NCBI RefSeq assembly: GCF_009683175.1
Contig: NZ_WKKW01000001.1
Span: 124,001 to 188,000 of the forward strand
DNA length: 64,000 bases
Direction of reading: 5' to 3'
Source: Bifidobacterium asteroides
GTDB lineage: Bacteria; Actinomycetota; Actinomycetes; Actinomycetales; Bifidobacteriaceae
In this document: in pieces, positions 1,050 through 40,940 of the stretch
How positions within the stretch are numbered: position 1 is the first letter of the stretch
Layout: every line of letters begins with the position of its first letter
Made by a program: the position numbers and the translations under genes
Notes under the pieces: generated by a model
The model's database searches: none
What the model saw: the letters and a program-made list of their open reading frames with translations, nothing else
Told to the model about the DNA's origin: nothing

Positions 1050-1102
1050 GTGGTGCGCCAGACAGGATTCGAACCTGCAACCTGCTGATCCGTAGTCAGC
1101 TG
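1050..1102. repeat. Left att core (53-bp direct repeat, 3' part of tRNA-Arg)
   Basis: Positions 1050-1102 are identical to 40863-40915. The segment carries the CCA end, acceptor 3' strand, T arm, variable loop and anticodon arm of tRNA-Arg on the minus strand. It stops just past the anticodon stem, and the following sequence (from 1103) does not encode a D arm, so this is a non-functional tRNA remnant marking the prophage boundary. The right copy is inside the complete tRNA gene. Confidence 0.95.
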
Positions 1103-1239: not shown

Positions 1240-2730
1240 ATGGCAAGGCGGCGAGCGAACGGCGAGGCAAGGCCGTACAAGTTCAGGTCCACCTGGAAGA
1301 GCCGGGACAAGGACGGCAATCCGGTCGTCAAAAGCAGGCAGAGATGGCAGCAGCAGATATACGTCGGATACCTGCCTAACGGGAACCCGCGCAAGAAGAC
1401 CTTCACTGCAGACACTGCCGGCGCTGTCACAGCAAAAGTACGTGCCTGGCGCAAGGAGCTCAAGGAGAACGACGGGGTTGAAGTGGACAAGAAAGCCACA
1501 TTGGGCTCCTACTCCCCCGTCTTTCTGGCAAAGAAAAAGGAGATGGTGGATCCCAAGACTTACAGGATGTATACCAACGTCTTGAGGAATCATCTCGCAG
1601 ACTATCAGGACAAGCCTCTAGCACAGTTCACGCCATCGACCGTTACGCACATATTGGCCACAGCAAAGGCTCATGACCGAAAAGGACGCGTATTGGGCAG
1701 TGCAGGGCTAAGCCTGAAGAAGCAGCTGAGATCGACTCTCCACTCCCTCTTTGAGGATGCAAAGAGGGACAGGATAATCCCGTCAAACCCTGCTGAGAAG
1801 CTGCCCATCCCTCAAAGCAAGGATGCCCAATATAAGGAGGTTGGTCGGGAGAGAACCGCCTTCAGCGTTCCCGAGATGGAATCGATGCTGCGAGCTGCTG
1901 CCGCAATGCCCGACAAAGCAGTGGGAGCGCGCATGTGGTTCCGTTTGCTGACCGGCATGCGCCAAGGGGAGATCCTTGGTGCCCGCGAGCCGGACCTCCG
2001 CCTGTACAAGGCCGGAACCGTATCATACGAGGACCGCGAAGTCGAGAAAGAATGCGAATACCTGGATGCGGATGGCAACCCGCAGAAAGGCACCATCAAA
2101 GTCACGGAACAAGTCCCCGTGGAAACAAAGGCCCTGGTAGGCAGCTATGAGGTCAACTGGAAGCTGGAGGAACTCCAGAAAGACCACGGGTGCGGAAGCA
2201 AGGGCCCAGATGGCTGGCCGTGCCAAAAGAAACGAGGTGCAAACTGCCCGGACTGGAAATGGAGAATCCCTGACGGCTTTGACATGCTCCACCTCTCGGG
2301 CCGCTGGTGCCTCACCCACCCCAAGAGCCTGACAGGGCGCAGAGTCCCCATAGTGCCCGTACTGGCCCAAGTGTTACAGCAGCACATAAAAGCCACTAGC
2401 AAACAACCGAATCCATATAGTTTGTTGTTCCACAACGTCGATGGTTCCGTCATCGATCCCAAGCAGGATACTGTGGACTTCCGCAGCCTGATGGAGCTGG
2501 CGCACATCCCCCACCCGGAGACTCACTCAGGCCATGAGACCAGACACAGCGTGGTCACCCTGCTGGCGTCCATGGGTGTGGACGCGCAGCTTATCAAGGA
2601 AATCGTCGGCCACTCCTCCGATGCCATGGTCGAGCACTACCGTCACGCCGACGACAGCGAGCGCCTGCGGGCCATGGAGACACTGGACGAGAGCCTGGGA
2701 CTGGAGCAGATCGGCTGGGCCGGCAAATAG
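1240..2730 (+). CDS. int: Phage tyrosine integrase
   Basis: This 496-aa site-specific recombinase would integrate and excise the prophage at the tRNA-Arg att site. Residues 1-90 form the arm-binding N-terminus, about 90-190 the SAM-like core-binding domain, and 205-480 the catalytic domain. Catalytic residues are visible: R241 in GMRQGE, H432 and R435 in HETRH, H458 in GHSS, and the nucleophile Y467 in VEHYRH. Between about 270 and 365 there is a long insertion containing several cysteines (C318, C328, C336, C357) that might bind metal. The ATG follows AGGAGG with good spacing. The gene lies 137 bp from the left att core, as expected for int. Confidence 0.95.
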   Translation: MARRRANGEARPYKFRSTWKSRDKDGNPVVKSRQRWQQQIYVGYLPNGNPRKKTFTADTAGAVTAKVRAWRKELKENDGVEVDKKATLGSYSPVFLAKKKEMVDPKTYRMYTNVLRNHLADYQDKPLAQFTPSTVTHILATAKAHDRKGRVLGSAGLSLKKQLRSTLHSLFEDAKRDRIIPSNPAEKLPIPQSKDAQYKEVGRERTAFSVPEMESMLRAAAAMPDKAVGARMWFRLLTGMRQGEILGAREPDLRLYKAGTVSYEDREVEKECEYLDADGNPQKGTIKVTEQVPVETKALVGSYEVNWKLEELQKDHGCGSKGPDGWPCQKKRGANCPDWKWRIPDGFDMLHLSGRWCLTHPKSLTGRRVPIVPVLAQVLQQHIKATSKQPNPYSLLFHNVDGSVIDPKQDTVDFRSLMELAHIPHPETHSGHETRHSVVTLLASMGVDAQLIKEIVGHSSDAMVEHYRHADDSERLRAMETLDESLGLEQIGWAGK

Positions 2731-3011: not shown

Positions 3012-3081
3012 ACCTGGATGATAGGCCGGAGTAGCGGGATGATGGTGATTAGAAGCTCGACACGCCCGGAGGAGTCCAGAG

Positions 3082-3109
3082 TTGCACTGTGCCCACACTG
3101 TGCTATATT
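3082..3109 (+). promoter_or_regulatory. Promoter with two CACTGTGC operator-like repeats
   Basis: A -35 TTGCAC (3082-3087) and -10 TATATT (3104-3109) are separated by 16 bp. CACTGTGC occurs at 3085-3092 and 3096-3103, 11 bp apart, filling the spacer. A start at about 3116 would give a leader of about 50 nt before the ATG at 3166. The repeats are good candidate operators for the HTH protein encoded second in the operon. Confidence 0.6.
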
Positions 3110-3165
3110 TATAAATGTCAGCAGGAAGCAAAGGCTTCCAGCCAATAGCAAGAAAGGCTAAGAAA

Positions 3166-3456
3166 ATGACTACCGCAATCTACGCAGAAGACTTCGAGAC
3201 CATCATCGACCCCACCGCCGGAAGCTTCAAGGATCTGCTCGACCATGTCGCAGACGACATCGACCTGGACGAGGCTGTCCCCGACTATGTGGACGAGCTG
3301 AACAAGGCCACCCGCCCCCTGGGGGTGAACGTCACGGTCAGCGGCATGGCCACCTGCGACGCCGATGCCGGCATCGACCGGCAGGCGGTCGAGGAGGCCG
3401 CTCGCGAGGTCGACTTGTACGAGGTGCTGGAGCGCCACGAGGCCGTCCTGGCATGA
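3166..3456 (+). CDS. Small acidic protein, candidate anti-CRISPR or other anti-defence protein
   Basis: The 96-aa protein is strongly acidic, with many D and E residues throughout, and has no membrane segment. I recognise no domain. The ATG at 3166 follows GAAAGG; the in-frame ATG at 3115 lies at the predicted transcription start and is less likely. The last codon overlaps the next gene by 4 nt (ATGA). A small acidic orphan followed by an HTH regulator, under a promoter with internal repeats, is the layout of acr-aca operons in phages. That is an inference from context; the protein could equally be an antitoxin-like or structural moron product. Confidence 0.7.
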   Translation: MTTAIYAEDFETIIDPTAGSFKDLLDHVADDIDLDEAVPDYVDELNKATRPLGVNVTVSGMATCDADAGIDRQAVEEAAREVDLYEVLERHEAVLA

Positions 3457-3794
3457 CCCCTGCGGAGTTCAAGAGCACACGCGAGTCGCTCCATCTGACT
3501 GTGAAGTGGCTCGCCTCGCATATGCGCGTGCGCCGGCAGAGCGTCCAGCGCTGGGAGAACGGACGTTTCCCCATCCCCGACTCGGTGGAGGCCGCCATGC
3601 ATGATCTGGAGGTCCTCACCCAGACCAGCATCGACAAGGGAGTCCAGGACCATGAGGACATCCTGTCTGTGCCTATGCAGGACCAGGGGCCCGAGGACGA
3701 CATGCCCCCGGCCTGGCATCGCATGGTCGCCAAGCAGATCGCCGGTCAGACCGGGGCTCGCATCCAGTATGAGGAGCATGATGAGCAGGCGTAA
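3453..3794 (+). CDS. HTH regulator resembling DUF1870/Aca2-type proteins
   Basis: The 113-aa protein has an N-terminal helix-turn-helix of about 55 residues, including the core SVQRWENGRFPIPDSVE (residues 30-46), and an acidic C-terminal tail. The pattern MT..EF...R..L.L followed by a WE.GR.P.PD..E segment is, from memory, that of the DUF1870 group to which the anti-CRISPR-associated repressor Aca2 belongs. It probably represses its own operon through the CACTGTGC repeats in the promoter. It is coupled to its neighbours by a 4-nt overlap upstream and a 14-nt overlap downstream. Confidence 0.75.
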   Translation: MTPAEFKSTRESLHLTVKWLASHMRVRRQSVQRWENGRFPIPDSVEAAMHDLEVLTQTSIDKGVQDHEDILSVPMQDQGPEDDMPPAWHRMVAKQIAGQTGARIQYEEHDEQA

Positions 3795-4614
3795 GAGCAA
3801 GCCGACGCTTTCCCCCGTCTGGCTGCCCTGGATCAGGGATAAGCTGGCTGACTGGAAGGACGACCTGGGCCGGAGGACAGCCATCGCGAGCGGGCAGCCT
3901 CTGGACGACTCATGGCGGATTGGTGAGCCCTTGCGGTCCTCGCCCATCTGGTGGGTGAGCCGGGACATGGCGACCCTGGCCGCCGACACCGCCGAGGCCG
4001 GCGACCTGCCCGACGTGCGGCCGCCCAGCGGTACGGGGTTCATGGTCTTCCAGGATGGCCTGCCCTTCCGGCTTCAGGATTATCCGGACAGCCGCTCATG
4101 CAGAGTCGATGCTATCGAGTGGACGGTGACCCCTATCGGCCAGACAGGCACCACCCTGGTCACCGAGGTGTTCAGCAGGGAGCCGGCCTATGTCAGGGAG
4201 TGCGATCCGCGCCTGCCCCTCGGCTATGTGACTTTTGCTCATGGCCGCAGGCCGGGCATCCTGGAGGACGTGCTCAAAGCCGCCTGGGCGCTCAGCCTGC
4301 AGCCCACGATCAGCGAAACCCGCGCCCCCAGGGTAACCCCTCTGGACCGGGTACCCGCCAGATACGAGCAGAAGGAGATCCCCCAGGTAAAGATGCTGCT
4401 CCTGCGGGAGAACCTGCACCGGCCGGGCGAGCAGGCCGAGCCGGGCGAGAAGACCCGCGAGTACTCGCACCGGTGGATCGTGCGGGGCTTCTGGCGCGAG
4501 CAGCCCTACGGCAAGAACCATGCCCTGCGCCGCCGGCAGTGGATCCCGCCCTTTGTCAAAGGCCCGGCCGACAAGCCCCTCATCCGCAGGAAGACGGTGC
4601 ATATCCTGCGGTAG
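3781..4614 (+). CDS. Actinobacterial phage/plasmid-type hypothetical protein with HRW...GFWREQPYG motif
   Basis: The 277-aa protein starts inside the 3' end of the HTH gene (14-nt overlap) behind GAGGAG; an adjacent ATG at 3778 is possible. The C-terminal 55 residues carry HRWIVRGFWREQPYGKN and a basic tail ending in KGP.DKPL..RKTVH. I have seen this motif in hypothetical proteins of actinobacterial phages and plasmids, but no function is known to me. No membrane segment or catalytic signature is evident. It shares the acr/aca-like operon, so it may be a third anti-defence or moron product. Confidence 0.75.
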   Translation: MSRRKSKPTLSPVWLPWIRDKLADWKDDLGRRTAIASGQPLDDSWRIGEPLRSSPIWWVSRDMATLAADTAEAGDLPDVRPPSGTGFMVFQDGLPFRLQDYPDSRSCRVDAIEWTVTPIGQTGTTLVTEVFSREPAYVRECDPRLPLGYVTFAHGRRPGILEDVLKAAWALSLQPTISETRAPRVTPLDRVPARYEQKEIPQVKMLLLRENLHRPGEQAEPGEKTREYSHRWIVRGFWREQPYGKNHALRRRQWIPPFVKGPADKPLIRRKTVHILR

Positions 4615-4679: not shown

Positions 4680-4749
4680 TGTCAGCGAAAAGAGAAGCCC
4701 CCACGGAGCAGCCACTCCTGGGGGCGGACGATCTGCTTAGGAGATCATC

Positions 4750-5133
4750 ATGTACGAAGACTACACCGACAGCAACCCCGTCGCCACCGCCCAGGTCTTT
4801 GACGATGTGGACAAGGACAAGAAGAACGGCCTCCAAATCAGCACCGCCGCCCGCCGGATCGCCAAGGAATGCAACGACACCCAGAAGGACTACGGCGTCT
4901 ACTTCGACAAGGACGGCCGCTACATCGCCGCCAAGCCCTATAACGCCACCCCCTCCGGCGGGGTCGACGCCTACGCCCCCGGCCATGTCTTCTACGTGCG
5001 GGGCCGCAAGGACCACGGCCAGCCCGGGCACATGACCCAGCGCGAGGCGCAGATCATCGTCACCGCGGTCACCCGCTACGGTGCGGGCACCAGCGAGGCC
5101 GACCTCTACCAGTCCCTGATGAGCGAGGACTGA
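4750..5133 (+). CDS. Hypothetical protein, first gene of the second accessory cassette
   Basis: The 127-aa soluble protein is charged and shows no domain I recognise. Its C-terminal half has a Gly/His-rich segment (GRKDHGQPGHMTQREAQ) before a helical end. The ATG follows AGGAGATCATC. The stop overlaps the next start (TGATG), so it is translationally coupled to the two genes downstream. The three form a compact moron between the acr/aca-like cassette and the lysis genes, where temperate phages often carry host-interaction or defence genes. Confidence 0.65.
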   Translation: MYEDYTDSNPVATAQVFDDVDKDKKNGLQISTAARRIAKECNDTQKDYGVYFDKDGRYIAAKPYNATPSGGVDAYAPGHVFYVRGRKDHGQPGHMTQREAQIIVTAVTRYGAGTSEADLYQSLMSED

Positions 5134-5732
5134 TGGGCATGACCGATCACGCGGAGTTCAGCAGCTGGGTGCGGGACATGGTCACCCAGCTGCTGGCGGA
5201 CCGGGCCGGACGGAAGCCAGCCGAGGATACGGGCATCTACCTGGAGCCGGCGGACCTGGGCCGGTGCCGCACCCAGTACGATGCCAAAACCCCATTCTGG
5301 ATGTACAAGGGGGATCCTGAATGGCTGGACCGGGAGCCCGACCTGCTCGAGGCGCGCATCAAGGCGGTCCGTGAGGGGCTTTTCATGCTCACCTACCATG
5401 TGGGCCAGCGGGACATGAACCTGGCTCTCCTGCAGGCCGTCCAGGAGGGCCGGCCGCTCATGGACTCCCAGGTGCAGCGGATGGAGCAGGAGGAAAGCCG
5501 GCAGACCGGAAAGCAGGTCACCATCAGCGTCCTGCTGTTCGGCCAGCTCATGGACACGGGAGCGATGCACGCGGCCGGCAGGATAGCCGGCATGCTCAAA
5601 GACAAGCGAATGGCCGTGGACTACGCGACCTTCATCACCGACCTGGCCGACTGGAGGCAGGGAGGCCGGCGCAGCCTGGACATGCTGGACCGGTGGGGTC
5701 GGGAACTGAGAGAGGAAGGACTGGAACAATGA
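5133..5732 (+). CDS. Hypothetical protein, second gene of the accessory cassette
   Basis: The 199-aa soluble, mostly helical protein has many M, E, R and L residues and no recognised family. It is coupled to both neighbours: a 1-nt overlap upstream (TGATG) and a 4-nt overlap downstream (ATGA). This suggests fixed stoichiometry or a complex with them. A regulator follows, so a toxin-antitoxin or anti-defence pair is possible, but nothing in the sequence identifies an enzymatic activity. Confidence 0.65.
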   Translation: MGMTDHAEFSSWVRDMVTQLLADRAGRKPAEDTGIYLEPADLGRCRTQYDAKTPFWMYKGDPEWLDREPDLLEARIKAVREGLFMLTYHVGQRDMNLALLQAVQEGRPLMDSQVQRMEQEESRQTGKQVTISVLLFGQLMDTGAMHAAGRIAGMLKDKRMAVDYATFITDLADWRQGGRRSLDMLDRWGRELREEGLEQ

Positions 5733-6622
5733 ACAACACGTACATGGGACACGATCCGACAACCCTGGCGGAGGCCAGGAGGATGCTCCTGGATGCCTCC
5801 GAGGACATCAGCAAAGCAGCGCAGATCGAAAAACGGCGTGACGACCTCATCGTCCAGGCCTTCGACCTGGGGGCCACATACCTGGATGTCATGGTCTGCA
5901 CCGGTCTGAGCAGGCCTACGGTCTACCGCATACGCCGCCGTGCCGAGCAGGAGAACCCCAGCAGGGAAGCCGGCTGGGACTTCACCATCCCCGGCCACTA
6001 CAGCAAGACCGACGTTCCCCAGCCGATCCTGGAGGACACCCTCCAGGACGGGCTTGTCGGCCTGCTGGACGACGTGACCGACGACGACAGCCAGCTCGGC
6101 AAGGACTTCTCCTCCCCCGACCTGACCGACGAGCAAAAAGCCATCCGGGATGCCATCCACGACCTGGCCGCCAGGGCGGCCGTCAGCAAGACCGACATCG
6201 TGGCCTCCACCGCGCTAGGCATCACCCTCACCAGACACAAGCATGAGCTCGCCCTGGATAAGGCAAACAAGAAGTTCAGAGCCTACATGGAGCAGCTGCA
6301 CCTGATGGACAAGACGTTCAATGGCATCCCGGTCAACCCATCGTTCCTGCGATTCTTCTGCCCTACCGGCAAGCTGGTCAAGCACGGCATCTCATACAGG
6401 CCCGGCGTGAGCGAGGCCGTGGGCATCCTCGTCTATAATCCTGATACCAGGCAGTACCTGGGCTACTTCCCAGACCGGAAGCCGGCAGGGACAAACCTGT
6501 GGCTGCTGACCTGCACCAATGGCGCAGAGTATGACACGACCGGCCAGGAGCACCCGGCACCAGCACCAGTACATTCCGAGTACGGCACCTGCACCGTCAT
6601 CGGCCCTGCCAAAGAGCAATAG
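5729..6622 (+). CDS. HTH-containing hypothetical protein, third gene of the accessory cassette
   Basis: The 297-aa protein has an N-terminal helix-turn-helix of the resolvase or sigma-factor region-4 kind (about residues 30-75, core YLDVMVCTGLSRPTVYRIRR). A long C-terminal part follows with no clear domain, ending in a beta-rich region (about 195-297). The ATG overlaps the preceding stop and follows AGGAAGGA. It may regulate the cassette or act with the two upstream products. A terminator follows 27 bp after its stop. Confidence 0.7.
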   Translation: MNNTYMGHDPTTLAEARRMLLDASEDISKAAQIEKRRDDLIVQAFDLGATYLDVMVCTGLSRPTVYRIRRRAEQENPSREAGWDFTIPGHYSKTDVPQPILEDTLQDGLVGLLDDVTDDDSQLGKDFSSPDLTDEQKAIRDAIHDLAARAAVSKTDIVASTALGITLTRHKHELALDKANKKFRAYMEQLHLMDKTFNGIPVNPSFLRFFCPTGKLVKHGISYRPGVSEAVGILVYNPDTRQYLGYFPDRKPAGTNLWLLTCTNGAEYDTTGQEHPAPAPVHSEYGTCTVIGPAKEQ

Positions 6623-14044: not shown

Positions 14045-17000
14045 GACTCTCCCATCGCCGACTGCATGAGCGCATGGGCGGCTGTCCTGCCGTCGATGGT
14101 GCCCTGAACGTAGGGGTCCTTGACCCCGTAGTTGTTGATAATCACCTGCATGGGCGGCAGCTTCTCAGCCCGAGACTCCTGACGGCCCCCGTCCTTGGCG
14201 AAGAGGGCGCGCTGCTGGTCGCCGGTCAACACCAGCTCAGGGTCGCTCGTCTGGTTGCTGACGATGGTCACCCCGGGAGCCAGATAGCCGCCCTTGTCGT
14301 ACAGGCTGGGGACGATGCCGCCCTCCGCATATCCGCCAGGCCGGTTCAGGGCCGACAGGCTCCCATACCGGTGCAGCGCATAGTTCAAGCCCGCATAAAT
14401 GTTGGCCAGCGGGTCCGTGATCGGCCGGCTGGCGAAAGGCCCCGCATAGGCGGCGAAGGTCGGAGGGATCACCTGCATGAGCCCTTGGGAGGGGATGCCG
14501 GCTTTCGCATTGCTGTCCCAGTTGTTGATGGCGGCTGGGTTGCCTCCGCTCTCCTGGCTCATCCGGCGGAGCACTGTGTCGGTCCAGCTGTCCGGCTGGC
14601 CCAGCATGTGCAGGGCCTGGACCACCAGTCCCCGCCAGCGTTGCACGCCCGACCCGCCGGACCCGGCGCTGGACATGCTGGAGATCAGGCTCTTGGCCTT
14701 GTCGACCAGCCCCTGCATGACCTTGACCGGCAACTGGGCGATAAGCCGCCCCCAGTCGCCTGCGCCGATGCCCGCTAGCAGCCTCTTGACCGGGTCCACG
14801 ATCAGCCGGGAGACCATACCACCAGGGTCGCTGAAAAATTCGCTAACGCTCTTGGCTGCGTTGGACAGCCAGGTTTCGGCGCTCTGGACGATGCCGCCCA
14901 GGTCGAAACGGGGCACTATCCCGCCAGCTGCGAAGCCCATGTCGGCACGCACGGCAGCGGGGCCGGACTGGCGGGCCAGACGATTCCACCGGTACACGTT
15001 GTCCGGGCCGACGGCGCGCACCCACTCGGGCACCATCCAGGCTTCGCCGGGCGAGGTCATCGCCAGGATCGTATCCTGCCCAGGCGCATACCCCGGATTG
15101 ATGCCACCCTCCGCAAAGTGCGCGTCAGGCAGCGTCAGCTTCAGGCCGACAGCGCCGGCCACCTTGTTCCAAACGTTTTTGATCCCGTTGGTGTACACGG
15201 TGTCGACCACCCAGCGGACGGGCTTGGCAGCCGCATCCCTGATCTGATCCCAGGACCTGCCGATCCAGTCCTTGGTCGTTTCAAAAGCCTGCCCGATGGC
15301 ATGGATGCCGTCCTTAAAGGGTCCGAGCACGTTGCGGTCGATCCAGTTCCAGGCGTTCTGCGACTTTGAGCTGATCCAGTCCCAGACGGGCCGGATCGCG
15401 TTGTCATAAAGCCAGTGGAAGATCTTTGCCAGACCGTTGATCTCCCTGTTCCAAGCGTCCATGACATGGGCCTTGATCCAGCCCCAGGCGTCGCGGAACT
15501 TGTCCACGATCCAGTCCCAGACCGGACGGATGTATTTCGCATACAGGTCGTTCCACGCATCCCCCAGCGCTTTGGCACCGTTTTTGAATGGGGTTATGAC
15601 ATGATCGTTGATCCAGTTCCAGGCGGTCCCCATGGCCTTCCTGATGCCGTCGAAGGCGGGCTGGATGACCTTGTGCCACAGGTCCTCCACCGGCTTTTTG
15701 AGCAGGTTGAAGGCGATCACCCACGGGGTGACGAAAGACGTGACCACGAAGGTGATCAGAATCTTGAACACTTGGACGATCCCCTGCCCGATCGTCTTGA
15801 GCACGTTCCATGCTCCCTTGGCGACGCCGGTGACCTTCGACCACGCGGTCTTGAAGAAGTTCACAAATGGTCCGGAGAACCACTTGCCCACATTCCCCGC
15901 GACCTTCTTGATGCCGTTCAGCGCACCGTTGACCGCGTCGCGGAAGGGTTTGCACTTATTGTAGGCGAGCGTAAAGGCTCCGACCAGCAAGCCTATGGCC
16001 AGCACAGCCATGCCGATCTTGCTTTTGATAAAGACCGCATCGAGCAGCTTGAAAGCGGTCTTGAACGCTTTCACAGCTTTGTTCGCCAGTAGGACGGCTG
16101 TCACCACGCCGGTGATGCCGCCTACTACGCCTAGCAGGACCTTGACGAGCGTCCGGTGCGAGTCGGTAAACTTTTTTATCGATTCTGCCCCGCTGACAAA
16201 CCATTTCAATACGCCTGTCAACGCGGGCAGGAACTTGGCAGCAAGCGTTATGCGGGTCGTGTCCAGAACCTGGTTGAAACGGTCGGTCTGTACGCGTGCG
16301 GTGTTTTGGGTCTCCTTCCAGGTGCTGATGTCCTTGCCGTTCTTCTTGGCGGCATCCGATATGCCTTTCACATTCTTCGCAAAGGTCTGCGTGCTGCCGC
16401 CGGAGAGCATGAGGGCCGTGTTCATTCCGGTGGCCCCGCCCATGATCTTCTTGAGGGCTTCCGTGTAGGTCTGCGCCTGCGGGCTGCCCTGCTTGAGCTG
16501 GTCGTTGAAGCCCTTGCTCTTGGTGTACATCTGTTCCCACTGGCGGACCAGTGCAGCCTGCTGGTCAGGGAGTGCTTTGAGACCCTGCCTGTAGTCGTTG
16601 AGGGTTACAGACCCGTCCATGACGCCTTTGGCGAGCTGCTTGGCTTTGCCGGTCAGCTGGCCGAACATGGTGGACGCGTTTTCTGCGGCGAACCTGCTCT
16701 GGTTGAACGTGTTGAGCATGATGGTACCGGAGGGGCCCATGTGCTTGAGGATGGTCTCCGACAGGTAGCCGATCGTGCCGGTCAGGCCACGCTTGCCCAG
16801 ATTCTGCGCCACATCCACGCTGCTGATGCCGAACTGCTGCATCTCGTTGACAGCCACTTGATTGGGTGCCTGGAGAGCGCGGATGGTGTTGGCCAGCTCC
16901 TGGGTGGACTCCTGGGCGCTGGTGCCGTGCGAGGTCAGGGTCGCTTCAGCGCCGCCGACCTCGGCGAAGCTGATGCCTGCTGCGGATGCGACGGGCAGCA

Positions 17001-24366: not shown

Positions 24367-26097
24367 TTATGCGTACAGCCCGTGCGAGGCGTAGGGGTTG
24401 GGTTTCAGGGTCTTTTTGCGGGTCATGGCCTCGGACAGGGCGTCGCAGATGGCTGCCACGCCGTCGATCTTGTCCCGAGAGTCCCGCTTGTTGGGCTGAA
24501 CGTTGCCGTTCTCGTCGGTCTTGACCGCCAGATTGTCAACATTCCAGCGCAGGACCGGGTTGCCGCCATGCTCGAAGAGCGGATGGTCGGTGGTGCCGGT
24601 CAGCAGTAGCCTCTGCAGCTCCTTGAGCACCGGCGAGAGGGTTTTGAAACCCTGCCGCACCGGGGTGAGCCTTTCGTCGGACAGGCCGGACTCCTCCAGA
24701 TCGTTGACCACCTGGGTGGCGTTCCACGGGTCATAGCCGATGGTCTGGATGCTGTAGGCCTCCAGGTCGGCACGGATCTGCTGCTCGATGTACGAGTAGT
24801 CGGTCACATCACCAGGCGTGGGCACCAAAAACCCGTCACGCACCCAGACGCTGGCGTTGCCCGAGGTCCTCCGGTCCAGGTCGTCGACCGCAGCCTCCGG
24901 GCACCAGAACTTCATCCGGCACTTGTACCCCTCCCCCTCGGGAAAGAGCAGGCACCAGGCGGTCAGGTCGGACACGGAGCCCAGATCCCAACCGCCGTAG
25001 CATTTGCGACCCTGAAGCCGCTTCTCATCCAGGGTGCCGGCGTTCCGATCCCAGGCCTTCAAAGTCAAAAACCGCGTCTCCTGCTTGGTGCGGATGCCCA
25101 GGTGAAGTCGAAGGTAGTTGGCCAGTTCGGCTGGCGAGTTCTTCGCCCTCCTCGCCGCCTCCTGCAGGTAGTCGGCGGACGGGGATACTCCGTAACCCGG
25201 GTTGGCTTTCATCTGCGTCTCGACCGCGAAAGGATCGTCGTCCTCGTCCGCACCCCAGACGACCCCGTACCAGGACTGGTCCTTGATGGTGCCTGCCGCC
25301 AGCTGCTCCACATAGTGGCGGGTCTCGTCATAGATGGTGCCCGACTTGCCCGCATCAGGGGTGGTGATCCTCACGCCCAGCGGCTGCGTGCGGGAGCCTC
25401 GCCCCGTCTCCAGGGTGCGCACCAGGTCAGGGGTCTTGTACACGTGCAGCTCGTCGCAGATGAAGCAATGCAGGTTCATGCCGTGGGCAGCGTCGGCTGC
25501 CGAGCTGATGACCTCCATGTAGCTGCCCGAAGCCATGTGCACGATGCGCTTCTGATGCGCCTTCATCACGCCCTTCAAAGCCGGGGTCTTCTCCACCAGC
25601 TGCTTCACCGGTTGAAACACAAAGCCCGCCTGATGCTCGGTGGAGGCGGCGCACACCACCTGCGCACCCTCCTCACCGTCAGCGCCCAGCATGTACACGG
25701 CGATCCCGCCCGACAGGGTGGACTTGCCGTTCTTGCGGGGCACGTCCACGTACAAGTCATGGATGATCCGTACCGTCTGCCCGTCCGAATTCTCATGCAC
25801 CCATCCGAACACGGGGGCCAGGATCCAGGCGATCTGCCAGGATGCCGGGTCCAGGTGCCGGCCTGCCCATTTACCTTGGGTGTGCCTCAGCACGTGGAAG
25901 GACATGAGCACCCGGTCGACCCGTTCAGGGTCGAAGTAGGCTCCCTCCTCGCTGCGGGGTTCGGCGGTCTTGATCTTCGGGGTCTGCCACTGCTCAGGGA
26001 GGCTGATCCCGCGGGAGAGCATGTACCAGGCGACCTCCGGCGACAGCTTCAGACGATCCAGCTCCTCCTGGGAGGGCACGTCGAAGTCGTCGGTCAT
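24367..26097 (-). CDS. Terminase large subunit
   Basis: The 576-aa DNA-packaging motor has an ATPase domain with Walker A PRKNGKSTL and a Walker B/DExx-type CFICDELHVY, then a C-terminal nuclease domain with the acidic segments YGGWDLGSVSDLT and IQTIGYDPWN. I start at ATG 26097 (MTDDFDVP), 10 nt past the small-subunit stop. A longer in-frame start around 26151-26157 would overlap that gene by about 50 nt and adds an unconserved-looking leader. Confidence 0.92.
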   Translation of the reverse strand: MTDDFDVPSQEELDRLKLSPEVAWYMLSRGISLPEQWQTPKIKTAEPRSEEGAYFDPERVDRVLMSFHVLRHTQGKWAGRHLDPASWQIAWILAPVFGWVHENSDGQTVRIIHDLYVDVPRKNGKSTLSGGIAVYMLGADGEEGAQVVCAASTEHQAGFVFQPVKQLVEKTPALKGVMKAHQKRIVHMASGSYMEVISSAADAAHGMNLHCFICDELHVYKTPDLVRTLETGRGSRTQPLGVRITTPDAGKSGTIYDETRHYVEQLAAGTIKDQSWYGVVWGADEDDDPFAVETQMKANPGYGVSPSADYLQEAARRAKNSPAELANYLRLHLGIRTKQETRFLTLKAWDRNAGTLDEKRLQGRKCYGGWDLGSVSDLTAWCLLFPEGEGYKCRMKFWCPEAAVDDLDRRTSGNASVWVRDGFLVPTPGDVTDYSYIEQQIRADLEAYSIQTIGYDPWNATQVVNDLEESGLSDERLTPVRQGFKTLSPVLKELQRLLLTGTTDHPLFEHGGNPVLRWNVDNLAVKTDENGNVQPNKRDSRDKIDGVAAICDALSEAMTRKKTLKPNPYASHGLYA

Positions 26098-26107
26098 CTC
26101 GTAGGGG

Positions 26108-26590
26108 CTAGGCAGGCATGGCGAACGGGTTTTCCTCCTGGTCGCCATCATCATCACCCATCCCTGAAATATCGCCTTCCGCCGCAGGGTTCAGCCCGAA
26201 GTCACGGGCAAACGTATGGATATCGGAACGAGCAGCCTTCAGCGCGCTGACAGCCGGATGAGGCTTGGCAACACCACTGTCGGTGACCACCGACAGTCCA
26301 CCGTTCGCCTGCAGCTCCTTGACCGCCTCACGCATCTGCCAGACCGCAGTGCAATACGCCTCAAGGCTGGGACCATCCACCTTCTTCAGGATCCCCAGCC
26401 GGTCCAGCGCCTCCACGACCTGCTTCCATGTGCTCTTCGCGGCGCTCGGCATGTAGGAGGGCATCTTCGGACGCTCACGTTCGAAGTCCGGAGCCTCCTT
26501 GACCTTCCGGCCGCCCGAATCACGGCCATCCCCGCGGCCATTGATCAGCCTGAGCTTCGGCGGAGTTGGTGATGGGCCTCTGCGTCCCAT
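26108..26590 (-). CDS. Terminase small subunit, P27 family
   Basis: The 160-aa DNA-recognition subunit begins MGRRGPSPTPPKLRLINGR, a hallmark of P27-type small terminases. A helical core then carries AKSTWKQVVEALDRLGIL and DGPSLEAYCTAVWQMREA. The ATG at 26590 follows GGAGGG. Together with the HNH nuclease upstream it suggests cos packaging. Confidence 0.9.
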   Translation of the reverse strand: MGRRGPSPTPPKLRLINGRGDGRDSGGRKVKEAPDFERERPKMPSYMPSAAKSTWKQVVEALDRLGILKKVDGPSLEAYCTAVWQMREAVKELQANGGLSVVTDSGVAKPHPAVSALKAARSDIHTFARDFGLNPAAEGDISGMGDDDGDQEENPFAMPA

Positions 26591-26713: not shown

Positions 26714-27100
26714 TCAGCGGTCCAGCTGGTCGAAGATGCGTGCCGCCAGGCTGGGTCCCTGCCCCTTGTGCCCGCGTCTGCGTCTGGCGGCGAGGGTCTT
26801 GGCCGTGTGGCAGTCATGGCACAGGCTCTGTAAGTTGGCGAGGTCGTAGAGGCTGCCGCCGTCGGCGATCTCCCAGATGTGATCCACCTCGGTGGCCGGC
26901 CTGCCGCACCTCACGCACCTGTGCTGGTCCCGGTCAAGTGCGGCCTGCCTGGCCTTGCGCCATGCTATCGGGTCGAGCTGTCTGGTGTGGGCTGATGGTC
27001 TGCTCCATGCCGGCCGCTGGTGCTGGGCGCATCTGCCATCCTTGACGGCCTTGGCTGTGCAGCCCTGGTAGGTGCATCTGCCTTTGGGTCTGGTGGGCAT
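26714..27100 (-). CDS. HNH homing-type endonuclease of the packaging module
   Basis: The 128-aa protein has an N-terminal basic Cys/His segment and a classic HNH fold: RCVRCGRPATEVDHIWEI, then LANLQSLCHDCHTAKT with both CxxC zinc pairs. HNH proteins next to the terminase of cos phages stimulate terminase cleavage. It precedes the small terminase gene, and its ATG overlaps the upstream stop (TGATG). Confidence 0.92.
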   Translation of the reverse strand: MPTRPKGRCTYQGCTAKAVKDGRCAQHQRPAWSRPSAHTRQLDPIAWRKARQAALDRDQHRCVRCGRPATEVDHIWEIADGGSLYDLANLQSLCHDCHTAKTLAARRRRGHKGQGPSLAARIFDQLDR

Positions 27101-27891: not shown

Positions 27892-28632
27892 TCATGCGCA
27901 TGCTATGAGCTCACTCGTATCGAACTTCCATTTCCCGGGCTCCTCTGCCTTGACGACTGAGGGCAACTTCCCACGTTTGATCCACATGGTCACTTGCTTG
28001 CGATTGACTTTCCTTCCGGTCTGCCATTGCGTCCAGTCGGCTGCGTCCTTGGGTGTGCAGGTGATGGTTCGGCCTTTGAGCTCCTCCATCCTGGCCTGTC
28101 TGATGGCTGCCACGCTCCACACGCTGCCGCATGCTGGGCATGTCGCCATCTGGTCGTCGGGCAGTCCTGTGATGTCGGCTCCGCACTCGGGGTTGAGGCA
28201 GTGCCCGTGGATGATCCGATCCTGTTGCGGCGTGGTGCGCAGCCTGACCCGGTGGAGGGCTTGGGTCAGCTGCTTGTAGTCCCTGCCGCTGTTCGGCGCG
28301 TCGGCAAACCTGCCCATCCTTGAAGCCAGCTTGGCGAGCAGCTGTGGCGCTTTGCCGCCCCAGAGGCCGATGTCGCCAGCCACGTCCTGGATGGTGTCCT
28401 CCACCTGGTCGTACAGGTCGGCGGCGCTGATGTCGATGGGCGTTGGTGCGAAGGCGGGGTGCGCTGCTCCCCCGCCATGAGCCGAGTAGCGGATCTCCCT
28501 CCGCTCCACCTGTTTGAGGTCTCGCATGCCGAGCCTGAGCTCGTGGATGGTCCTGGCGAGCTCCTGCCGGTGGGTCTTGCACAACGGCCCTCGTGGCAGG
28601 TCCTCGCAGATCGGGCATCGTGGTGTTGTCAA
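27892..28632 (-). CDS. Zinc-binding, HTH-like protein, candidate late-gene regulator
   Basis: The 246-aa protein has an N-terminal Cys/His knuckle (CPICEDLPRGPLCKTH), a helical middle, a zinc ribbon (CLNPECGADI...CPACGSVW, about 145-170) and a C-terminal HTH-like region (NRKQVTMWIKRGKLPSV). It is the last gene of the early operon, directly before the late promoter region, where phages often encode the late activator. The start is TTG, overlapping the previous stop (TTGA). The regulatory role is inferred. Confidence 0.75.
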   Translation of the reverse strand: MTTPRCPICEDLPRGPLCKTHRQELARTIHELRLGMRDLKQVERREIRYSAHGGGAAHPAFAPTPIDISAADLYDQVEDTIQDVAGDIGLWGGKAPQLLAKLASRMGRFADAPNSGRDYKQLTQALHRVRLRTTPQQDRIIHGHCLNPECGADITGLPDDQMATCPACGSVWSVAAIRQARMEELKGRTITCTPKDAADWTQWQTGRKVNRKQVTMWIKRGKLPSVVKAEEPGKWKFDTSELIACA

Positions 28633-36579: not shown

Positions 36580-37262
36580 CAGGCGGCCCTCCCGCTCTCA
36601 AAATGCACAGGAGTAAGAGGCATCAGGTTCGACATGTACTTATCGCTCTTGGCTGGCTGATCGAGGGCATCAGGCTCCACGGAACGCCAAGGCCCGTCAT
36701 CCGTCGACTTCGCAGCCCTGGCCCAAAACTCGCCCATCGTATCCTTATAAAAACCAGGCTTCGCAGGGACGCTCACCTTGCGTCGCAAAGCGCAGGAGAC
36801 CAAGCGCAAATCTATAGGATTGCGTCCAAGAGCATCAGTGCCTACACATGGATAGTCCGTGTGTGCCAGCGATGCTTTAGTCACCTCGTACAGCACGCCA
36901 TCTACCACCACGGCATCCCCGCAGCGCAGATCCCTGACATCAATCCGCGTCCAGTCGCGCTCATCCCACACCAGGTCCAGGCTCTTGATGCCGTCCAAGG
37001 GTCGCCACCTGCGATCCTCCATATTCGCAAGGATGGCTATATACGCCTGCCTTGAATAATCCCGCTTGCCGTACAGTATCGGCAGCTCAGCGACCATACG
37101 GATATATCCAGTGCAGTCACCATGTGGGCGATCAGTACCAGCGGTTATGTCAAAACTGTCATATTGGATTGCTCCTGATATTGTCGTCCCATCATCCAGA
37201 GTCACCACTACATGCTTGCCGCCAAAGTCCTCAGATTTGAGGTCGTTGTACCATTCACTCAT
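36579..37262 (-). CDS. Hypothetical early phage protein
   Basis: The 227-aa protein has an N-terminal Sm-like pattern (HVVVTLDDGTTISGAI) and a beta-rich middle. No catalytic motif is recognised. It overlaps the flanking genes by 1-4 nt and belongs to the early operon. Confidence 0.6.
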   Translation of the reverse strand: MSEWYNDLKSEDFGGKHVVVTLDDGTTISGAIQYDSFDITAGTDRPHGDCTGYIRMVAELPILYGKRDYSRQAYIAILANMEDRRWRPLDGIKSLDLVWDERDWTRIDVRDLRCGDAVVVDGVLYEVTKASLAHTDYPCVGTDALGRNPIDLRLVSCALRRKVSVPAKPGFYKDTMGEFWARAAKSTDDGPWRSVEPDALDQPAKSDKYMSNLMPLTPVHFESGRAA

Positions 37263-37513
37263 TTTCTTCCCCTACGATTGATTGTTTTGATTGTTTTCCG
37301 CCGTCTCTTCAGCGAGCGCCGGCGGCGTTGATGCCCGGCCTGCAGGGCGTGCATCCTGGAGTGGGTGATCAGCGCCCACAGGCTCACTTGTTCCAGACTG
37401 TCCGCCGCATCATCCAGCAGATCATCCACCTCATCAGCGTCATAGCTTTGATGCAGCCAGCCCCTGGTGGTAAGCAGCCGGCACCGGATGTCATGGGGTG
37501 TGATCAGAGTCAT
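37259..37513 (-). CDS. DivIVA-domain-like small phage protein
   Basis: The 84-aa protein has an N-terminal segment ITPHDIRCRLLTTRGWLHQ followed by SYDADEVDDLLDDAADSL. This is close to the DivIVA/GpsB core (TP.DI...F......GYD..EVD.FL). The C-terminal 25 residues are extremely basic (RRRRSLKRRRK), suggesting nucleic-acid or membrane binding. Host DivIVA directs polar growth in actinobacteria. The start at ATG 37513 is behind a G-rich ribosome-binding region. Confidence 0.65.
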   Translation of the reverse strand: MTLITPHDIRCRLLTTRGWLHQSYDADEVDDLLDDAADSLEQVSLWALITHSRMHALQAGHQRRRRSLKRRRKTIKTINRRGRK

Positions 37514-40862: not shown

Positions 40863-40915
40863 GTGGTGCGCCAGACAGGATTCGAACCTGCAACCTGCTG
40901 ATCCGTAGTCAGCTG
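40863..40915. repeat. Right att core (53-bp direct repeat)
   Basis: Identical to 1050-1102. It lies within the 3' part of the intact tRNA-Arg gene, so integration restores the gene. Confidence 0.95.
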
Positions 40916-40940
40916 CTCTAATCCGTTGGGCTACTGGCGC
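40864..40940 (-). tRNA. tRNA-Arg (anticodon ACG)
   Basis: A 77-nt cloverleaf on the minus strand: acceptor GCGCCAG (40940-40934) pairs with CTGGCGC (40874-40868), the T arm contains GTTCGAATC, and the anticodon loop CTACGGA gives ACG, reading CGN Arg codons as inosine. The discriminator A and an encoded CCA (40866-40864) follow. The gene is the integration site of this prophage and, to judge from the left flank, of a second element. Confidence 0.97.

Follow-up and report, generated by a model that had tools for sequence, protein, structure and literature searches.

An Aca2-type operon in a Bifidobacterium asteroides prophage as a candidate anti-CRISPR locus

The window considered here is a stretch of 64,000 nucleotides from Bifidobacterium asteroides. 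Its positions 3057-4614 are read, with moderate confidence, as an autoregulated anti-CRISPR operon of the Aca2 type, for which type I-E is the most likely target. A first-pass annotation had already proposed an acr-aca locus. As an inference this proposal gains support from independent lines of evidence: the Aca2 family character of the HTH protein, the linkage of an AcrIC5 gene and of a Cse1-like gene to the equivalent loci of relatives, and a host that has type I-E cas genes and spacers nearly matching the prophage.

The sequence suggests the following course of events. A strong promoter would drive early expression of P0001, the first protein of the operon, in a temperate phage whose host belongs to the asteroides group of bifidobacteria. 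P0001 would block a host defence, most likely the host's type I-E CRISPR effector. The HTH protein P0002, co-translated with it, would then shut the operon off in two steps. As a dimer it would sit on the inverted repeat of the promoter; it would further bind both hairpins of the leader RNA, where the ribosome-binding site probably lies within one of the two.

The operon and its proteins

The prophage around the locus comprises 39,866 bp (39.9 kb) and is bounded by an exact 53-bp direct repeat (Table 1). The operon is placed in its cargo (accessory) region, with the integrase on one side and the lysis genes on the other. Rechecking of the coordinates confirmed the annotated gene order: an acidic 96-aa frame, an overlap of 4 nt (ATGA), the HTH frame and then the 277-aa frame of P0003, which overlaps that of P0002 by 14 nt. 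The window itself is counted in among the stretches with a P0003 homologue.

Table 1. Features of the window and of equivalent or related loci (positions refer to the window unless a locus is named)
Feature	Position	Strand	Remarks
attL core, 53 bp, 3' part of tRNA-Arg	1050-1102		exact repeat of 40863-40915
Prophage tyrosine integrase	1240-2730	+	PF00589, 1e-16
Upstream promoter element	3057-3068	+	GCGACACGCCCG with 1 mismatch
-35 hexamer TTGCAC	3082-3087	+	by eye
Operator candidate GCACTGTG-N4-CACTGTGC	3084-3103		holds both CACTGTGC repeats; by sequence
-10 hexamer TATATT	3104-3109	+	by eye
5' leader RNA, two tandem hairpins	3116-3168	+	held-out match of model R1, 20 bits, E 0.0022; folding z -2.86
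Leader hairpin 1	3124-3139	+	GGAAGC-AAAG-GCTTCC
Leader hairpin 2	3146-3160	+	TAGC-AAGAAAG-GCTA; SD-like GAAAGG (3152-3157) in loop and 3' arm
P0001, 96 aa, acidic; candidate anti-CRISPR or other anti-defence protein	3166-3456	+
P0002, 113 aa, Aca2-like HTH protein; presumed autorepressor	3453-3794	+	PF08965, 29.2 bits (gathering cut-off 23.8); Aca2 in PDB
P0003, 277 aa	3781-4614	+	phrog_15934; homologues in 6/14 Aca2-like stretches tested
127-aa protein, first gene of second cargo operon	4750-5133	+
199-aa protein, weakly Cse2 (Cas11e)-like; possible Cascade subunit decoy	5133-5732	+	below Pfam cut-off
296-aa protein	5732-6622	+	sub-threshold HTH_23 match
Protospacer, spacer 39	16388-16420	-	AA flank; 2 mismatches at 4, 7
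Protospacer, spacer 29	25169-25201	-	AA flank; 4 mismatches at 4, 7, 13, 16
Protospacer, spacer 37	26213-26245	+	AA flank; 4 mismatches at 10, 13, 30, 31, none in positions 1-9
Protospacer, spacer 20	27009-27041	-	AA flank; 4 mismatches at 4, 16, 19, 26
Protospacer, spacer 31	28590-28622	-	AC flank; 3 mismatches at 2, 3, 4
Protospacer, spacer 73	37253-37285	-	AA flank; 3 mismatches at 1, 9, 14
attR core	40863-40915		inside tRNA-Arg(ACG) 40864-40940
AcrIC5-family gene	L025:7989-8204	-	PF22147, 3.5e-24
P0001 homologue, N-terminal extension of ~48 aa	L026:618-1073	+	followed by SocA/Panacea antitoxin-like and Aca2-like genes
Orphan Cse1-like gene (G001)	L024:5500-7782	-	partner of 145 aa ahead
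Orphan Cse1-like gene (G108)	L089:6932-8614	-	partner of 130-142 aa ahead
Orphan Cse1-like gene (G049)	L091:6319-7962	-	partner of 130-142 aa ahead; integrase gene adjoins

P0001 is a strongly acidic protein (pI 4.05, net charge -18). It had been called an orphan, which is not so: it belongs to a small family, and its homologues in two other genomes, 48-49% identical, identify it as the product of a real gene. Among 189 genomes, strong relatives were seen in three (its own counted) and weak ones in two more, one of the latter sitting in an implausibly long open frame. A search of Pfam, PHROGs, PADLOC and NCBIfam, which contain some Acr families only, yielded no significant family match to P0001 (best E 0.027). 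Its AlphaFold2 model (one homologue) has a pLDDT of 73 and a pTM of 0.67. In the fold search proposed with the annotation, Foldseek retrieved nothing convincing from the PDB; three viral models stayed within an E-value of 0.001, the top one reaching 1.9e-6 with a TM of 0.83 and 31% identity. Ranks 1 and 2 are unnamed, ranks 3 and 4 are uncharacterised proteins of Propionibacterium (Cutibacterium) phages. Cutibacterium phage CA1NRNZ has a distant homologue (E 0.07), which scores 28 bits with the family profile and adjoins a pentapeptide-repeat gene that is annotated as anti-restriction. Because of its charge, P0001 may mimic a nucleic acid; charge and gene company together suggest a DNA mimic.

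The annotated resemblance of P0002 to Aca2 is borne out. The protein passes the cut-off of Pfam family PF08965 (Aca2_YdiL), and its nearest chains in the PDB are Aca2 structures (8w35 and 7vjo at 1.1e-5, 7b5j at 2.7e-5). The Pfam match extends over residues 2-69 (profile positions 2-71 of 118) and leaves out the C-terminal dimerisation domain; the PDB match extends over residues 1-68. The relatives of P0002 in genomes G001 and G012 stay below the Aca2_YdiL cut-off, with 17.1 and 23.5 versus 23.8 bits. At an E-value of 1e-6, relatives are found in 17 of the 189 family genomes. Ten Aca2-like stretches plus L024-L026 and L085 were inspected with mechanical ORF lists, and L084 by RNA models only; Aca2-like gene places in G129, G132 and G133 were left out. 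Eight other genes upstream of Aca2-like genes showed no significant Pfam match.

Promoter and leader RNA

The two promoter repeats that had been reported at a spacing of 11 bp are indeed present, CACTGTGC being found at 3085-3092 and at 3096-3103. As a spaced pair, CACTGTGCnnnCACTGTGC, they occur once in the 2.14-Mb genome; a control with reversed pattern scored 0. The same positions, read by eye, can be taken as an inverted repeat with dyad symmetry at 7/8 positions, which overlaps the -35 hexamer and fills the spacer as far as the -10 hexamer (the promoter likewise by eye). Aca2 reportedly binds inverted repeats overlapping -35 and -10 (PMC8434428, in excerpt). Judged by its sequence, the core promoter of the operon contains an inverted repeat.

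The upstream promoter element also precedes cargo genes of relatives. The candidate GCGACACGCC was rejected as an Acr-specific signal: the element is not specific because it also lies ahead of a tRNA-Leu gene (L076) and of tRNA-Asn genes (L081). Ahead of tRNA genes, elements of this type, with 0-2 mismatches, are seen at L076:4533 and at L081:3966 and 5324.

The annotation had assigned the control by the HTH protein to the promoter repeats. These exist, but the promoter is probably not the sole site, and control of the operon probably acts on the RNA leader at 3116-3168, too. In 2024, Birkholz reportedly described control by Aca2 at the RNA level, via RNA binding. The structure of the leader is conserved: two tandem hairpins are formed in 8/8 leaders folded (leaders chosen by eye). 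The sequences of the stems differ among the leaders, e.g., GGAAGC/GCTTCC in the window and GGGATGC/GCATCCC in L078. Folding z-scores of the eight leaders range from -1.06 to -3.94, the weakest being equalled by 34/200 shuffles.

A covariance model, R1, was built from six leaders, with those of the window and of L024 left out, and run against 38 sources comprising 657,226 bases, a search space for which E-values are rough. It recovers the six training leaders and four held-out sites, L075 (1.2e-17), L024 (0.0017), the window leader (0.0022) and L085 (0.0063); the next match is at 0.18. Each of the four held-out sites is followed by an Aca2-like gene of equal orientation, at a distance of about 0.3 kb in the window, 0.4 kb in L024, 1.9 kb in L075 and 1.4 kb in L085. 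R2, a model of the same alignment that relies on sequence only, recovers L075, misses the leaders of the window, L024 and L085 at E up to 1, and gives one stray match (L023, 0.0094). The Aca2-like stretches L073, L074, L080, L081, L082, L083 and L084 contain no leader match; the two-hairpin leader was seen here in bifidobacterial relatives only. Ahead of 4750, the second cargo operon has in its own leader a strong hairpin, at 4697-4725, which is not matched by R1.

The host's type I-E system and the loci of relatives

The host possesses type I-E proteins Cas3, Cse1, Cse2, Cas7, Cas5 and Cas6e that span nearly the whole of their Pfam profiles; the reading frame of Cas1 is open throughout. The CRISPR array consists of 80 repeats with 79 spacers between them. 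Six of these spacers (20, 29, 31, 37, 39 and 73) resemble 33-nt sites of the prophage, from which they differ at 2-4 positions; none is a perfect match, and an AA flank is found at 5/6 protospacers. Shuffled spacers gave 0 matches with up to 8 mismatches in the window search or 7 in a second search. The further best matches in the window, of spacers 23, 40, 45 and 48, have 7-8 mismatches. In G001, 2/80 spacers differ at 2 positions each from sites in the prophage stretch of that genome, the flanks being AA and CA.

Positions of spacer and protospacer near the PAM matter most. Because all matches are imperfect and 4/6 spacers are mismatched within positions 2-4, escape could explain the persistence of the prophage. 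Spacer 37 appears to be the best candidate for active self-targeting, since its PAM-near positions are free of mismatches; several other protospacers may have escaped. A mismatch at position 4 of 33 recurs in the window (16388, 25169, 27009 and 28590) and in L024 (17095), and this position is possibly an escape hot spot.

A validated acr family directly upstream of the P0002 lineage is present in one relative only, not in the window. In G012, a Bombiscardovia coagulans-like genome of the same genus, a 71-aa AcrIC5 gene (85.1 bits, cut-off 27) directly precedes a P0002 relative (35% identical), which is followed by a P0003 homologue (L025). AcrIC5 homologues act as type I-C inhibitors in P. aeruginosa, whether taken from Pseudomonas or from a prophage of Bifidobacterium pseudocatenulatum (PMC7913775, PMC10651486, both in part). 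The candidate locus of the window has a bifidobacterial parallel in the anti-CRISPR locus acrIC5-racrIC1 of the latter prophage (same part of PMC10651486). The window differs in that P0001 does not match the AcrIC5 family of Pfam and that its host is of type I-E, with no Csd1 match. G012 displays no match to Cse1, Cse2 or Csd1. Since it nevertheless harbours a close P0001 homologue, the link to type I-E is not universal. Csd1 is matched in 8/27 genomes of the genus, once by a fragment, and the AcrIC5-bearing phage of G012 may meet type I-C elsewhere in the genus.

In G001 (L024), the order is a P0001 relative (48%), a P0002 relative (49%), a 145-aa gene and a Cse1-like gene. The 760-aa product of the latter matches CRISPR_Cse1 over 1-424 of 450 positions (2.1e-55); G001 carries a second, native Cse1, too. 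A lysin nearby is 85% identical to that of the window.

The Cse1-like gene of G001 is not the only one of its kind. Orphan Cse1-like genes are also found in G108 and G049, each behind a small partner gene. The partners are homologous (L089 versus L091 49%, 1e-34; L024 to them 6e-8 and 1e-6), and two of the three have HTH matches below cut-off. By eye, and with a few neighbours scanned, no further cas gene was recognised near these three genes. Their Cse1 matches end at 424 (L024), 373 (L089) and 365 (L091) of 450, whereas most, not all, native matches end at 445-450.

In the window, a Cse2-like gene is located 0.5 kb downstream of the P0001-P0003 operon. Its 199-aa product scores 16.5 bits with PF09485 (Cse2), the cut-off being 24.6; the best E-values for Cse2 are 0.009 in Pfam, 0.012 in PADLOC and 0.017 in NCBIfam. 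As sufficient evidence, these weak library matches were rejected: PF09485 scores three RnpA-like proteins equally or better. For this reason, a profile was instead built from seven native Cse2 proteins of bifids and ranked over 2256 ORFs. The 199-aa protein reaches 20.3 bits, compared with at most 3.9 in 200 shuffles, and rank 13, behind 12 Cse2 entries, some of which are the same gene twice; the next ORF has 5.8. The alignment to native Cse2 by hhalign covers 41-192 with a P of 7e-5. The profile support is fragile to leaving out the Cse2 of G103: the rank is kept, and the gap nearly vanishes (7.7 versus 6.9 bits). The net charge of the protein is -6, compared with +7 for the host's own Cse2 and -2 to +11 for ten native proteins. 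A Cse2 match in L090 was rejected as an orphan; with a Cas7-like gene next to it, and repeat-like DNA, it is read as a native system. The sub-threshold PF09485 matches of the RnpA-like proteins (L086, L087, L088; so read from their neighbours) are a false-positive trap.

Tentatively, the two operons may be regarded as an island that sabotages the type I-E Cascade. P0001, under Aca2-type control at DNA and RNA, would be joined by a Cse2 decoy of altered charge that enters and disables Cascade; relatives, at three bifidobacterial loci, would rely on a Cse1 decoy that lacks its usual C-terminal portion and is paired with a small conserved protein. Cascade subunits that phages have copied into anti-defence clusters are also known in AcrIB3 and AcrIB4, Cas-homologous anti-CRISPRs which act on Cas5/Cas8b of type I-B (PMC13131331, in excerpt). 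The candidates in the window and in G001, in contrast, resemble I-E subunits. If true, the decoy island would add Cas8e and Cas11e to the cas gene products that have been captured for inhibition.

Alternative readings and comparison with known loci

The same autoregulated operon might serve against another defence, e.g., restriction, with P0001 as a DNA mimic; any activity against type I-E would then reside in the Cse2-like operon or be absent. This we consider rather unlikely. It would suit the low pI and negative charge of P0001, the anti-restriction neighbour of its distant homologue in CA1NRNZ, its fold matches in Cutibacterium phages and its close homologue in G012 with no Cse1, Cse2 or Csd1 match there. 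AcrIC5 and Cse1-like genes in the equivalent loci of relatives, and near-matching spacers against the prophage, on the other hand, point to CRISPR. Still less probable is a toxin-antitoxin or addiction pair in which P0001 is toxin or antitoxin and P0002 its repressor partner. Relatives carry different genes ahead of the HTH gene, unlike an obligately co-evolving pair, and in one of them AcrIC5 occupies this position; such a pair is hinted at by a sub-threshold MqsA-family match of P0002 (24.3 bits versus a cut-off of 61.8) and by the SocA/Panacea antitoxin-like gene that stands between a P0001 homologue and the Aca2-like HTH gene in another stretch of G012 (L026).

Just as improbable is the view that the prophage persists by diverged protospacers or a silent I-E system and that the operon has no part in this, being a set of genes for regulation or lysogeny. 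The lack of a perfect spacer match and the recurrent mismatches at position 4 would fit in here; so would a survey in which most Aca2-like genes are without an upstream acr gene (just 35/1223 proteins have one; PMC9410906, in part), a figure that weighs against the anti-CRISPR reading as well, and a tyrosine-recombinase-like gene, recognised by eye, that follows P0003 in phage BigBern1 and in L025 (61% mutual identity). Spacer 37, with its AA flank and its first nine positions free of mismatches, however, speaks against this view, and so do cas genes that look intact and acr-type genes in equivalent loci.

Should the operon indeed be an anti-CRISPR operon, it would provide a type I-E anti-CRISPR candidate for bifidobacteria, in which type I-E is frequent (Cse1 in 50/189 family genomes). 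Aca2-type control, that by the RNA leader included, would then reach actinobacterial phages, and HTH gene plus leader could serve as bait in the search for more anti-CRISPR genes. With the orphan Cse1-like and Cse2-like genes, the conversion of Cascade subunits to inhibitors by phages would become testable in type I-E. Among the open-licence papers found, no title or abstract opening described the window's locus or a Cse1/Cse2-like inhibitor of type I-E.

Among known loci, acrIF8-aca2 of Pectobacterium phage ZF40 is similar in that an HTH gene of the Aca2 family comes after the acr gene and that an inverted repeat lies over -35/-10 (PMC8434428, in excerpt). The window differs in that its upstream gene matches no known family, that its phage is actinobacterial and that its leader hairpins are of the kind found here in bifidobacterial relatives only. 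Residue R30 of Aca2 aligns with Q29 of the window protein (alignment read by eye).

The sole record of the phage collection matched by a megablast of 1000-25000 is BigBern1 (MT006237), a Bifidobacterium asteroides phage. It shares the cargo region with the window and has a P0003 homologue. In contrast to the window, it has no match to P0001 or P0002 (tblastn, E 0.01); the promoter is of the same type, but leader hairpins and HTH gene are lacking. The promoter block of BigBern1 (L023) is duplicated, at 15686 and 16624, ahead of two cargo units, which suggests a cassette duplication.
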